A stretch of 64,000 nt of DNA from Bacteroidaceae bacterium (lineage in GTDB: Bacteria; Bacteroidota; Bacteroidia; Bacteroidales; Bacteroidaceae), in assembly GCA_017524545.1 (NCBI GenBank), contig JAFXVN010000025.1:20933-84932 (forward strand), read 5' to 3'. The position numbers and the translations under genes are program-made. Positions 24,101-39,739 of the stretch are shown here, in pieces. How positions within the stretch are numbered: position 1 is the stretch's first letter; the number at the start of each line of letters is the position of its first letter. Under the pieces are notes generated by a model. That model was not told the origin of the DNA and did no database searches. It worked only from the letters and a program-made list of their open reading frames with translations.

Positions 24101-24886
24101 CACCCAGTTGAACTGCCATTGCCCATTGAGCATGAGGCGCAGAGAGCTTTCTGGCCAGAGCCAGGGTTTCTGGTAGGCAGCATCGGCCTTCATTTCCTTC
24201 TCACTGGCATAGAGGAGCATCGTGGCACGTCCCGGTTCCTTGTTGATGCCGAAGACGGTCTCGTTCTCCCAGTCGTTCTTGGAAACGCCTTCTTTGCTTT
24301 GAGCCTCAATCTTGAGGTTTGTCTTGACAAGTCGCCATTGTACATATTCGCTGGCATTGGTGCCTTTCATTTGCCAGACGTGTCCGCCAGGCTGGCAGGT
24401 GTCGTTGTAGCCCAGCTTCAGCCCGCCTGCTGCACAAGTTAGGACGACAAGCCTCTCCCCAGCCCTCTCCAAGGGAGAGGGAGTCTTGTCGCTGCCATTC
24501 CCCCCTCCTTTGGAGGGGATGGGGGAGGCTTCGATGAGCCATTGCTGGTTGGGGTTTCTTGGGCTGAGTTCCCAAGTCAGCACTTCGCCCTCCCGAGAGC
24601 CGTGGTTGCCATTGTCGAGCGCTACGTCGGCGCTGGGGCTGTAGAGGCACCAGTAGCCCTGCCGGTCGCTCTTCACGATGCGCCACACCTGGGTCTGTGA
24701 CTTCTTGTTGGCAGGCGAGAACGTAATAGTGCCGTTCAGGTTGTCGAGGGCAAGACCGTCGCCAATTTCAAGTCGGTAGCCTTGGTTGGGGTCATAGTCC
24801 TGAGCCAATGCCATTGAGCATTGAACATTGAACATTGGACATAGGACAAACGCTGCAAGCAGCAAGGAAAGGAGTCTTTTTGTCAT
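21197..24886 (-). CDS. Glycoside hydrolase family 2 beta-galactosidase, secreted
   Basis: LacZ-type enzyme, 1229 aa from ATG 24886, which opens a signal peptide ([15 protein letters not shown]). An N-terminal region (about 30-195) has ricin-like repeats ending Q-W/V-Q-W-R. The GH2 sugar-binding domain starts near 235, and the TIM barrel carries the acid/base motif [11 protein letters not shown] and the nucleophile motif [12 protein letters not shown]. The C-terminal domain ends [10 protein letters not shown] then L-D-A-A-M-R-G-L-G. Three repeat inserts are in frame: an AATGTTCAATGTTCAATG tract in the signal peptide (MFNVQCSM), a full GC-rich element adding [10 protein letters not shown]...[10 protein letters not shown] (about 119-146), and a shorter copy (about 438-459). 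Secretion suggests use of dietary or host galactosides. Confidence 0.9.
23512..23572. repeat. GC-rich palindromic element inside beta-galactosidase (shorter copy)
   Basis: On the plus strand it begins AGCCTCCAAAGGAGGGGA and ends CCCCTCCTTGGGAGGGG then TAGGGGGAGGC. In the gene it codes [16 protein letters not shown] between two strands. The left outer arm is partly deleted. Confidence 0.85.
24451..24529. repeat. GC-rich palindromic element inside beta-galactosidase (full copy)
   Basis: A 79-bp full element: GCCTCTCCCCAGCCCTCTCC at one end and GGGGATGGGGGAGGC at the other, each arm holding its own inner palindrome (CCTCTCCAAGGGAGAGG and CCCTCCTTTGGAGGG). It is in frame, in the linker after the first lectin-like repeats. 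Confidence 0.88.
24811..24847. repeat. AT-rich low-complexity tract in the beta-galactosidase signal peptide
   Basis: Four variants of AACATTG/GCATTG in tandem (CATTGAGCATTGAACATTG and onward) code [10 protein letters not shown] at the end of the signal peptide. Confidence 0.65.
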
Positions 24887-24918
24887 AATAGCTGTCGTGT
24901 TTGATAATTTACGGGTAC

Positions 24919-24950
24919 AAAGGTACGAATAAGTGAGCAAAAAACCAAAC
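24919..24950 (-). promoter_or_regulatory. Promoter of the beta-galactosidase gene
   Basis: Minus strand: TTTG at 24950-24947, 20-base spacer, TACCTTTG at 24926-24919; the start codon follows about 33 bases later. Confidence 0.6.
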
Positions 24951-37559: not shown

Positions 37560-37632
37560 GAATTAAGAAATAAGAATTAAGAATTTGCTGCCGCCCGCAT
37601 AACTATGGACTGTGAACTATGAACTATGAACT
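37560..37632. repeat. AT-rich repeats bridging the flippase and fusion genes
   Basis: AAGAATTAAGAAATAAGAAT and onward (37560-37587), then GGACTGTGAACTATGAACTA and onward (37606-37632). The latter provides the ATG and the residues MNYEL of the next gene. Confidence 0.8.
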
Positions 37633-39739
37633 GAAAAAACGTAGCAATGCCTTCGACCTGCTGTGCGGATTGTGCATCCTTAGGATGGTGATGCTGCACG
37701 TCGTCTGCCAGACGCAAATGCGACAGACACCGTGGTGGCGCGAGACGATGGCATGGACGTTCTTCTTCATGAGCTTCTTCTTCTTCAAGGCGGGGTACTT
37801 TAACAAGGGAGTCACTGGCAAGACACTCCCCTACCTGCGCGACCGCGTCCGCCGCCTGCTTGTACCCTATATGTCGTGGGGCGTCATTGGCGGCATCATC
37901 GCCTTCTGCTGGCTTTGCCTCTTCCCGGAAGGGATAGACAAGGGCATCGCGGCTCTTGCAAAGTTCCGCTGGCACATCGGGGGCTTGACCTTCGGCAATA
38001 GTCCGCTTTGGTTCCTGCTGTCCTTCTTTACGACATACGTGTCGATGCACTTCATTGAGCGGGTGCGTCCCCTGCATTGGGTGGTGCCGCTTTTCCCTCT
38101 GGCCGGCTATTGGCTCTTCCTGCACGGCAATCCTTTGTGGTTCTATCTGAGCAACGTCTTCTGCGGCATCTTCTTTTTCTATATGGGCAAGGTGTGGCAT
38201 CATGTACTCGACCGTCTCACACGCCATCAAGCACTCGCCATCAGCACGGTGCTTTGCGTGGGTTTCGTCCTTGCCAATATCTATCTGCACGGCGAATATG
38301 AGATGAAGACCAATCTCTGGACAGGCTCCTTCTGGCATGTGCTGCTCATCATGCCCCTCTCGCTGCTGGGCATCTCGGGCGTCCTGCTCTCGCTGCCGAT
38401 GCCACGGGTGCCATTGGTCAATTACATCGGCGAGCACAGCATGGTCTATTTCGTCATGCACTACCCCATCGTTCTGAGTTATGCCTACGCCAGTATCCTG
38501 CTCGGTCACAACATACATGGCAGCATCCCCGACCTCATCATCATCCTGCTTCTCGCTTTCGGCCTGTGCACTTTGGCTGTTCCCTTCGTGGAAAGCGTGC
38601 CTTGGTTGAGCGGGAGAGCCTCCCCCGTCCCCTCCCAAGGAGGGGGGATTGTTTATTTCTACCATACCCAGGATACGGAGCGCATTGTTCGCGAGTGGAA
38701 GCAAGGAACCTTCCCGTCGCATTTCCTCTATGGGGCTTTGCAATTGCCGGATTATGGTTACGAAATCGTGTGGCACCATCAAAAGCACACCTACAAGCGG
38801 ATGCGGGATATGGTTGTCGCCACATGGAAAGTCCTGACCTGCTGCAAGCATTACGACGTGCTCTATGCCACGCACACGCTTGGCATTGAACCCATCATCC
38901 TGCTTCGGGCATTGCACCTTTATCGCCATCCCATTGTGGTATGGCACCATCAGCCCATCGTCGAGGCAAAGAACCCGTTGCGGGAAACTGTGGCACGCCT
39001 CTTCTACAGGGGCATGGACCACATGATATTCTTCTCCGAGAAGCTCATGCAGGACAGCCTCCTCTCCCCAAAAGCCGACTCCAAGCGCATGAGCATGGTG
39101 CACTGGGGGGCAGATTTGGAGTACTATAACAGGCTAAAAGCCTCCCCCGTCCCCTCCAAAGGAGGGGTGAACGGCGAGGCGGCAGACAGTTCACCCCTCC
39201 TTGGGAGGGGACGGGGGAGGCTGTTTATCTCCACCGGCAAGGAGCTTCGCGACTACGAGACCTTGCTCAAAGCCTTCCATGAGACAGGCTTGCCGCTTAC
39301 GCTTTATGTGGAGAAGAAGCGGCAGGCATACTTCGAGAGCCTGCATCCTGCACAAAACATTGAGATACACTATGGCGACCGCCCCATCCCGCACGAGATA
39401 GCGCTGGTGGTGGCGCAGAGCCACTGCGTCTGCATCTGCTGCCAGAAGAGCAACTATACCGTTGGACTGACAACCGTTGTGGAGGCGCTTGCCCTCGGCA
39501 AACCCATCCTTTGCACCCGCAACCCGCAGATGCCGATGGACATAGAGGCGGAGGGCTGCGGCTTCTGGATTGAGGTGGGAGACGTTGAAGGCTGGAAAGA
39601 GAAGTTGCTTTACATTGCCACTCACCCCGAAGAAGCCGAAGCGATGGGCAGGCGAGGCCGCGCCCTGGCAGAGCAATGCTACAATGCCAAGCAATGTGGC
39701 AAGGAAGTGGCAGAAGTAATGGAAAAAGTGAAAAGGTGA
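37619..39739 (+). CDS. Acyltransferase-glycosyltransferase fusion protein
   Basis: 706 aa in two unrelated parts. Residues 8-330 form an acyltransferase-3 family membrane domain (FDLLCGLCILRMVMLHV, ten or so helices, later N-Y-I-G-E-H-S-M-V-Y-F-V-M-H-Y-P). Residues 345-706 form a GT-B glycosyltransferase (YFYHTQDTERI, H-W-G-A-D-L-E-Y-Y, S-T-G-K-E-L-R-D-Y-E-T-L-L-K-A-F, V-G-L-T-T-V-V-E-A-L-A-L-G-K-P). The join at about 333-344 is coded by a half GC-rich element (SPVPSQGGG). A full element lies between the two glycosyltransferase subdomains (about 508-535). The start codon and MNYEL come from an AT-rich repeat. Probable role: acyl modification and sugar transfer in surface-glycan synthesis. A real fusion versus a lost stop codon is discussed in the findings. 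Confidence 0.8.
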   Translation: MNYELKKRSNAFDLLCGLCILRMVMLHVVCQTQMRQTPWWRETMAWTFFFMSFFFFKAGYFNKGVTGKTLPYLRDRVRRLLVPYMSWGVIGGIIAFCWLCLFPEGIDKGIAALAKFRWHIGGLTFGNSPLWFLLSFFTTYVSMHFIERVRPLHWVVPLFPLAGYWLFLHGNPLWFYLSNVFCGIFFFYMGKVWHHVLDRLTRHQALAISTVLCVGFVLANIYLHGEYEMKTNLWTGSFWHVLLIMPLSLLGISGVLLSLPMPRVPLVNYIGEHSMVYFVMHYPIVLSYAYASILLGHNIHGSIPDLIIILLLAFGLCTLAVPFVESVPWLSGRASPVPSQGGGIVYFYHTQDTERIVREWKQGTFPSHFLYGALQLPDYGYEIVWHHQKHTYKRMRDMVVATWKVLTCCKHYDVLYATHTLGIEPIILLRALHLYRHPIVVWHHQPIVEAKNPLRETVARLFYRGMDHMIFFSEKLMQDSLLSPKADSKRMSMVHWGADLEYYNRLKASPVPSKGGVNGEAADSSPLLGRGRGRLFISTGKELRDYETLLKAFHETGLPLTLYVEKKRQAYFESLHPAQNIEIHYGDRPIPHEIALVVAQSHCVCICCQKSNYTVGLTTVVEALALGKPILCTRNPQMPMDIEAEGCGFWIEVGDVEGWKEKLLYIATHPEEAEAMGRRGRALAEQCYNAKQCGKEVAEVMEKVKR
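38618..38649 (+). repeat. GC-rich palindromic element, half copy at a domain-fusion point
   Basis: GCCTCCCCCGTCCCCTCCCA then AGGAGGGGGG, in frame, exactly between the acyltransferase and glycosyltransferase parts of the gene at 37619. Confidence 0.85.
39140..39221. repeat. GC-rich palindromic element, best full copy (82 bp)
   Basis: Left arm 39140-39172 and right arm 39189-39221 are each 33 bases and are reverse complements with one mismatch. Arm structure: outer GCCTCCCCCGT, inner palindrome CCCCTCCAAAGGAGGGG, then TGAAC, around a 16-base spacer. In frame it codes SPVPSKGGVN...[11 protein letters not shown]. Confidence 0.93.

Follow-up and report, generated by a model that had tools for sequence, protein, structure and literature searches.

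Palindromic repeats and their host genes

The window analyzed here (64,000 nucleotides; contig JAFXVN010000025.1, positions 20,933 to 84,932 of the forward strand, assembly GCA_017524545.1 of a Bacteroidaceae bacterium) is part of a 3.6-Mb draft genome in 85 contigs and carries GC-rich palindromic repeats, nine copies of which were found in frame in seven protein genes. To judge from congeners, the organism is probably a rumen bacterium resembling Prevotella. Coordinates below are positions in this window. The gene of a LacZ-type beta-galactosidase (21200..24940, minus strand, 1247 aa) holds two of the copies, an A/A' inverted pair at 24449..24531 and a shortened A-family pair at 23510..23575, both on the minus strand. 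A second A/A' inverted pair was located at 32387..32469 (minus strand) in the gene of V-type ATPase subunit I (30773..32677, minus strand, 635 aa). Two copies also lie in a plus-strand gene (37619..39736) in which an acyltransferase-3 and a group-1 glycosyltransferase form one open reading frame (ORF): an A-family half copy (38614..38650, plus strand; ASPVPSQGGGI) is the linker of the two parts, and an A-family inverted pair (39137..39224, plus strand) is in the glycosyltransferase part. The Wzx-type flippase gene (36024..37556, plus strand) contains a B-family inverted pair at 36634..36728 (plus strand). The other hosts are an MltF-like lipoprotein with three B-family halves at its N-terminus (26746..26910, minus strand), two after the lipobox and the third before or at the signal peptide; a DUF4465 protein with an A' half copy near its C-terminus (6921..6957, plus strand); and a YceD-family protein with an A' half copy (60493..60530, plus strand). 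Flank coding scores were one-sidedly weak at 36634 and 60495, and the frames at these two sites are based on ORF and Pfam matches. Outside these genes, a B-family pair (18566..18682, minus strand) lies mostly 5' of an oxidoreductase (GFO/IDH) gene and is of doubtful coding status, a C-family pair (62850..62975, no strand assigned) is non-coding between GTPase and formyltransferase genes, and an A' half copy (484..520, no strand assigned) is non-coding by flank scores.

Four pairs of the window gave strong DNA folds (z -4.6 to -11.7), and the fold of the half copy at 38614 was weak (z -1.3). The pair at 39137..39224 has arms of 37 nt that are 95% complementary, with a fold of -46.3 kcal/mol (z -11.7). 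A first-pass annotation, made from the letters of the window, had described one palindromic element in frame in at least eight protein genes. Its coordinates and palindromes were correct on re-examination, as was the common frame that it reported for the copies in beta-galactosidase and V-ATPase subunit I, which measure 83 nt and are 88% identical. Its listed copies, however, fall into three sequence families and not one, and seven of the genes stand; the eighth, the GFO/IDH N-terminus at 18567, is doubtful, and the copies at 486 and 62850 are non-coding. The observation as a whole thus held in part: the phenomenon is larger than described, the hosts were slightly overcounted and the families were lumped.

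Repeat families and genome census

Family A/A' has the foot GCCTC and the stem CCCCTCC (A) or CCCTCTCC (A'). Family B has the foot GCCCCCT and the stem CTCCCCC (window copies at 18567, 26746 and 36634), and family C has a one-base loop (window copy at 62853). The half unit of the commonest family, A, reads A-GCCTCCCCC-RT-CCCCTCC(3 nt)GGAGGGG-NGAA, with a foot rich in C, a stem of 7 bp closed by a 3-nt loop, and GAA as a short tail. This family is uniform (0 or 1 mismatch in 90 of 106 half sites) and starts sharply, with A at position -1 in 88% of 104 copies and no strong conservation upstream. One strand of its arms is in pyrimidine tracts and the opposite strand in purine tracts, and the arms are free of stop codons in all frames; a TGA stop occurs in one frame where T follows the stem, as it does in 44% of copies.

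When the genome was searched with the arm motif at up to three mismatches, 124 sites were detected, compared to none for a reversed-pattern control. The census set (106 of the 124 sites and two sites with four mismatches) was grouped into 82 clusters, comprising 38 halves, 26 A-A pairs (25 inverted, one direct) and 18 in which A is joined to a different CT-rich hairpin. Both forms taken by repetitive extragenic palindromic (REP) sequences and bacterial interspersed mosaic elements (BIMEs), the single hairpin and the inverted dimer, were present. The commonest foot-to-foot length of the inverted A-A pairs was 83 nt (11 of 25). Terminal inverted repeats like those of miniature inverted-repeat transposable elements (MITEs) were found in pairs, and the second arm is absent from half copies. 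In 489 kb of genome stretches chosen around copies, 174 CT-rich hairpins were counted compared to 7 in each of three Markov shuffles, and the pyrimidine arm came first in 169 of the 174. At Rfam gathering scores no RNA family was detected at the repeats, the sole match in the window being a cobalamin riboswitch, and a search of viral contigs for phage carriage gave 0 exact matches.

Judged by the coding potential of their flanks, 50 of the 82 clusters were in frame, 18 had one coding flank and 4 were intergenic. These calls rest on a codon-usage threshold, and because random positions were called same-frame coding in 540 of 1000 cases by the same test, the 50 of 82 does not amount to an enrichment on its own. 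In an ORF test that did not use codon usage (at least 90 codons on each side, random positions drawn from the same stretches, two clusters near stretch ends dropped), 56 of 80 clusters lay inside ORFs compared to 1680 of 3000 random positions (56%; p = 0.013), and 42 of the 50 in-frame clusters passed. Placement in this genome is by this measure not mostly extragenic, as it is for REP sequences and BIMEs, and a palindromic repeat in frame in many unrelated genes, as for Rickettsia palindromic elements (RPEs), was found. Among 30 proteins searched against NCBIfam (four with only a distant name, seven without a match at threshold), the hosts included LysRS, ValRS, TopA, LigA, ClpB, SufB, RpoN, NqrA, CysN, RelA/SpoT, a PcrA-like helicase, MutS2, FeoB, RmlD, an ABC-F ATPase and an OPT transporter; Pfam added a 7TM-HD protein, a GH36 enzyme, an RsmF-like methyltransferase and a ketoacyl synthase. 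The ClpB gene has two inserts, a C-family repeat (REKTPSDSPLKGEDTKLSK) and, further on, a family-A half (ASPDPSKGGENV).

Reading frame in the direction of the gene was strongly biased, at 30:0:5 for 35 sense halves (p = 2e-10 versus equal use) and 4:4:24 for 32 antisense halves (p = 4e-6 versus equal use). The peptide of the favoured frame, ASPxPSKGG...FTPPLEGTGEA, is rich in Pro, Gly and Ser. The dominance of one frame speaks for translation of the insert as opposed to skipping, and to judge from the sequence the insert is probably made as part of the host protein.

Orthologous loops in relatives

LysRS was matched in 118 of 139 genomes of the genus, and the best 30 of the 118 were aligned. 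Among these 30, the family-A insert was found in the LysRS loop of G000 only; other GC-rich repeats occupied the loop in G160, G128, G172 and G173, a heptamer-type repeat was common to G122, G005 and G053, and the loop was short in 22. The insert segment was absent from two solved LysRS in the alignments. Syntenic DNA of the window and of four further genes provided ten loops beyond LysRS, 11 in total, where a loop is defined by length variation among orthologues and by the LysRS alignments. All 147 of 147 allele lengths at these loops (own genome included, up to 29 congeners) agreed modulo three, the lengths being taken from the DNA that separates gap-free anchor columns and independently of ORFs, with relatives that lacked matches to both flanks dropping out. 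At each of the 11 loops some relative carried another repeat or its remnant (a CT-rich hairpin or a heptamer array), and at most of them some relatives were short; loop contents were read from the alignments, and three shorter inserts at the first beta-galactosidase loop were classed as remnants by eye. At 23510..23575 in beta-galactosidase, relatives had heptamer arrays or shorter loops. At the flippase locus (36634..36728), G119 shares the insert, G143 has a heptamer-array insert and 11 other relatives have +0 to +3 nt. The insert in G119 implies that some copies arose before species separated. The glycosyltransferase loop of G160 is about 260 nt above the shortest and holds several repeated C-like elements.

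Comparison of 19 window ORFs with their orthologues revealed 22 minority insertions of at least 10 aa. A repeat signature (an inverted repeat with arms of at least 8, or a heptamer signature) was detected in 13 of the 22, compared to 4 of 192 control segments. Of the 13, two come from an antisense ORF over the flippase and count its loci a second time, and a single shared insertion accounts for five of the nine that had no signature. The inserted peptide segments were not conserved in the orthologues compared, which speaks against the possibility, raised in the first-pass annotation, that they are conserved in distant homologues lacking the palindrome. Its central proposal, a mobile palindromic element resembling RPEs in frame in protein genes, is supported by the census, the insert-free orthologues and the frame bias.

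The copy at 38615 is the linker of a gene fusion. In 14 assemblies examined, the glycosyltransferase was found in 13; it forms one ORF with the acyltransferase in five of these (G000, G122, G150, G160 and G171) and is a separate gene in the other eight, from which the fusion is absent. In five of these eight, the glycosyltransferase gene starts right beside the stop of the acyltransferase gene. The linkers of the fused alleles are repeat-like, and those of G000 and G122 are related. This comparison suggests that gene fusion can accompany an insert where two genes meet.

Distribution across genomes

At least one site was detected in 20 of 60 other sampled genomes of the genus, the richest having 50, 36, 36, 30 and 18 sites. 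Sites were found in two of 40 genomes from other families of the order (8 and 2 sites), and, at no more than two mismatches, in 12 of 395 genomes across the phylum including the one studied here, with at most five in each of the others. Among the matches listed for rumen and gut Prevotellaceae and the like, the exact motif lay in ORFs at 41 of 60 sites (random 55%); sites less than 400 nt from a locus end were dropped from this count, and the group labels were assigned by the analyst. Among the matches listed, the ValRS genes of Parabacteroides sp. PFB2-10 and a Prolixibacteraceae assembly also had an in-frame family-A copy, in the same loop that holds a C-family repeat in the genome studied here.

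Probable mobile hairpin repeats and alternative explanations

Taken together, these results are best explained, at a probability of about 0.87, by non-autonomous mobile hairpin repeats whose in-frame survivors are translated in host proteins. The half unit often stands next to another half in inverted orientation, and hairpins can then form from either half or from the whole; the repeat would move as folded single-stranded or hairpin DNA by means of an enzyme acting in trans. Copies lie in both coding and non-coding DNA. Genic copies would survive where the net length change is a multiple of three, where a loop, linker or terminus is tolerant, and where the frame is the benign one that encodes the peptide above; others would be purged, and purifying selection of this kind may underlie the length rule. 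The host protein would then be translated with the insert included. Unrelated repeats occupy the same loops in different species, and the length and sequence of these loops would therefore turn over by repeat insertion. On balance, though with distinctly less assurance, we favour a broader proposal for the genus: mobile hairpin DNA may be a main source of new loops and linkers, with the surface loops of core proteins acting as standing landing pads that are occupied, eroded and refilled, species by species, by unrelated repeat classes (CT-rich hairpins, inverted heptamer arrays) in three-base units, and with fusions arising likewise.

Several observations weigh against the mobile-repeat explanation. 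A mobilising gene was not found. The inserts are not clean additions, as 14-23 nt of loop are missing relative to the shortest relatives in the four canonical copies compared (lysS, beta-galactosidase at 24449, recD2-like and ABC ATPase), and a target-site duplication is not definable, given the divergence of the empty sites and the gap in the native loop. Ten of the 82 clusters have discordant flanks or a stop (five with flanks on one strand in different frames, four in the same frame with a stop, one whose flanks are on opposite strands); these may represent disrupted genes or spacers. In other named Bacteroidota, the exact motif lay in ORFs at 3 of 15 sites (random 48%; among the matches listed), two of the three being the ValRS copies; the sites outside ORFs include those in Hallella colorans and Prevotella sp. 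BV3P1. Metagenome-assembled genomes (MAGs) and drafts make up many of the genomes compared. Finally, copies are not rarer in ORFs than random positions, although purging of two thirds of genic insertions predicts that they would be, and simple purging may thus be incomplete as an explanation; either insertion favours genes or the inserted lengths are biased to three.

Of the alternatives, the one that survives best requires no dedicated enzyme, the hairpins and heptamer arrays being copied by template switching in replication or by recombination. It would also account for the replacement of native loop (14-23 nt) and for the presence of CT-rich hairpins and inverted heptamer arrays, which are unrelated classes, at the same loops, and it is consistent with the failure to find a cognate transposase. 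By contrast, the uniformity of family A, its fixed outer boundary and its abundance in few species suggest a specific process, and we regard copying without an enzyme as possible but doubtful.

We consider it unlikely that the repeats are REP sequences or BIMEs moved by REP-associated tyrosine transposases (RAYTs, or TnpA-REP), Y1 enzymes that would take the inverted pairs of footed hairpins as substrate, cutting and joining them as single strands. The paired footed hairpins are like REP dimers as these are described in the literature (PMC3733652), and a search for a TnpA-REP-type transposase, proposed in the first-pass annotation, did reveal nine RAYT-like Y1 genes with long C-terminal parts in the genome (contigs C54, C58, C17, C63, C20, C32, C21, C43 and C60). 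There were four Y1_Tnp matches, three of them above the cut-off. The four Y1 genes that were aligned share a long conserved C-terminal part, and four proteins tested had weak similarity, below the cut-off, to NCBIfam REP_Tyr_transpos. C-family hairpins were located 454 nt from the Y1 gene on C43 and, in two copies, at about 1.7-1.8 kb on C17. However, no family-A copy was detected within 2.5 kb of any of the nine genes in the DNA examined, which on one side ended with the contig at 188 nt (C21) and 649 nt (C60), and hairpin density was 0.079 per kb at 30 RAYT loci compared to 0.074 per kb at 29 lysS loci. Congeners searched had 0 to 12 Y1 matches each. Motif count and RAYT matches were not correlated in 38 genomes of the genus including this one (rho -0.03, p 0.86; 38 of 40 genomes searched, two from other families left out, some genes counted as two pieces), and G020, at 62% completeness, had 50 motif sites and no RAYT match. 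RAYTs were rejected as the mobiliser on the grounds of flanks, hairpin density and copy number. No parental insertion sequence turned up in the part of the genome that was read, no search having been aimed at one.

Retention of the repeats as useful sequences, for mRNA stability, translation control or as adaptive linkers, is improbable; the hairpins are strong and the share of clusters in ORFs is slightly above random (p 0.013), but the hosts are unrelated and relatives have other repeats or none at the same loop. More improbable by far is that RNA processing takes the inserts out, or that ribosomes skip them, as with mini-introns or bypass elements, leaving the proteins unchanged. Such a mechanism would fit the strong hairpins and their tolerance in tRNA synthetases, topoisomerase and DNA ligase, yet it would need neither the modulo-three agreement of all 147 allele lengths, nor a dominant frame, nor an open frame through the element. 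An artefact of assembly or binning, or a set of ordinary conserved peptide segments, can be dismissed despite the draft state of the genome, as the same family occurs in ORFs of many separately made assemblies, presence and absence alternate at syntenic sites with intact flanks, and the ValRS copy of Parabacteroides sp. PFB2-10 is in a record not labelled as a MAG.

Comparison with known repeat systems

RPEs are known from obligate intracellular Rickettsia, and we know of no transposase for them. The repeats described here extend an RPE-like phenomenon to gut anaerobes with larger genomes, where it occurs at high copy number, in core enzymes and as presence/absence alleles at the same loops in many species. 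The tolerance of selfish DNA in proteins, the origin of loops and fusions, and the movement of palindromes without a visible transposase become testable, and repeat insertion may often be what lies behind long indels in alignments and structure predictions from these bacteria.

RPEs are small palindromic repeats of several families that form in-frame translational fusions in unrelated genes, with 44 integrations in R. conorii, of which almost half lie in ORFs (PMC10969869). The present repeats are likewise small palindromes in frame in unrelated genes. They differ in phylum, in unit length (83 nt, half about 30, compared to about 150 in RPEs), in their pyrimidine and purine arms, in reaching 50 in-frame clusters from a single family within one genome, in the occupation of the same loops by unrelated repeats across species, and in gene fusion.

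Intragenic REP sequences tagged by GTAG or CGTC occur in Opitutus terrae, R. conorii, Xanthomonas and others, where dimers or groups add 20-30 aa, DNA repair and tRNA synthetase genes being among the hosts, and one case of different REP sequences at about one site is given for recB (PMC3733652). Hairpins and dimers inside ORFs, including those of tRNA synthetases, are a shared trait. In contrast to REP sequences, the loop here is 3 nt, the stems lack the leading AT pairs of CGTC repeats, and genic copies are the majority. A REP tag was not a regular part of the unit: of 106 half sites, 41 had CGTC at the base of the stem and the rest other tetranucleotides, and GTAG or CTAC was near 7 of the 106. 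The enterobacterial repeats RU-1, RU-2 and RU-3 are MITE-like, are associated with ORFs and are sometimes intragenic (PMC2759123), but are 103-168 bp long and described as intergenic with a number of genic cases. Hairpin repeats with Y1 HuH proteins are reported in Bacteroidetes for TnpA-REP/RAYT subclasses 2.4 and 2.6 (PMC6006769), from which the present case differs in having no flanking family-A copies and no link to copy number. With no fixed REP tag, no mostly extragenic placement and no family-A copies flanking RAYT genes, the repeat is filed as an in-gene palindromic element. By analogy, it appears to work like RPEs and intragenic REP sequences, but across many species of a genus and with the same loops reused. 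In the open-licence literature, the string CCTCCAAAGGAGGGG was not found in any paper. Among the titles listed, which cover RPEs, REP sequences, RU repeats and MITEs as well as genome papers of Prevotella intermedia and Porphyromonas gingivalis, none reports in-frame palindromes in Prevotella or other Bacteroidales.

Other repeats and features of the window

AT-rich heptamer arrays, often neighbours in opposite orientation, were located at 30580-30612 and 30747-30782, at 58738-58767 and 58778-58830, and at 61863-61892 and 61936-61968. In the 489 kb of genome, 8 of 87 heptamer arrays were in frame, and this class is therefore mostly outside genes. Two AT-rich arrays of 21-bp units (7068-7155 and 63594-63677) are mutually inverted and 56 kb apart, and arrays of 22-bp units lie at 35648-35724 and 17436-17508. 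The cobalamin riboswitch is at 257-456 (78 bits), upstream of an ORF at 608.

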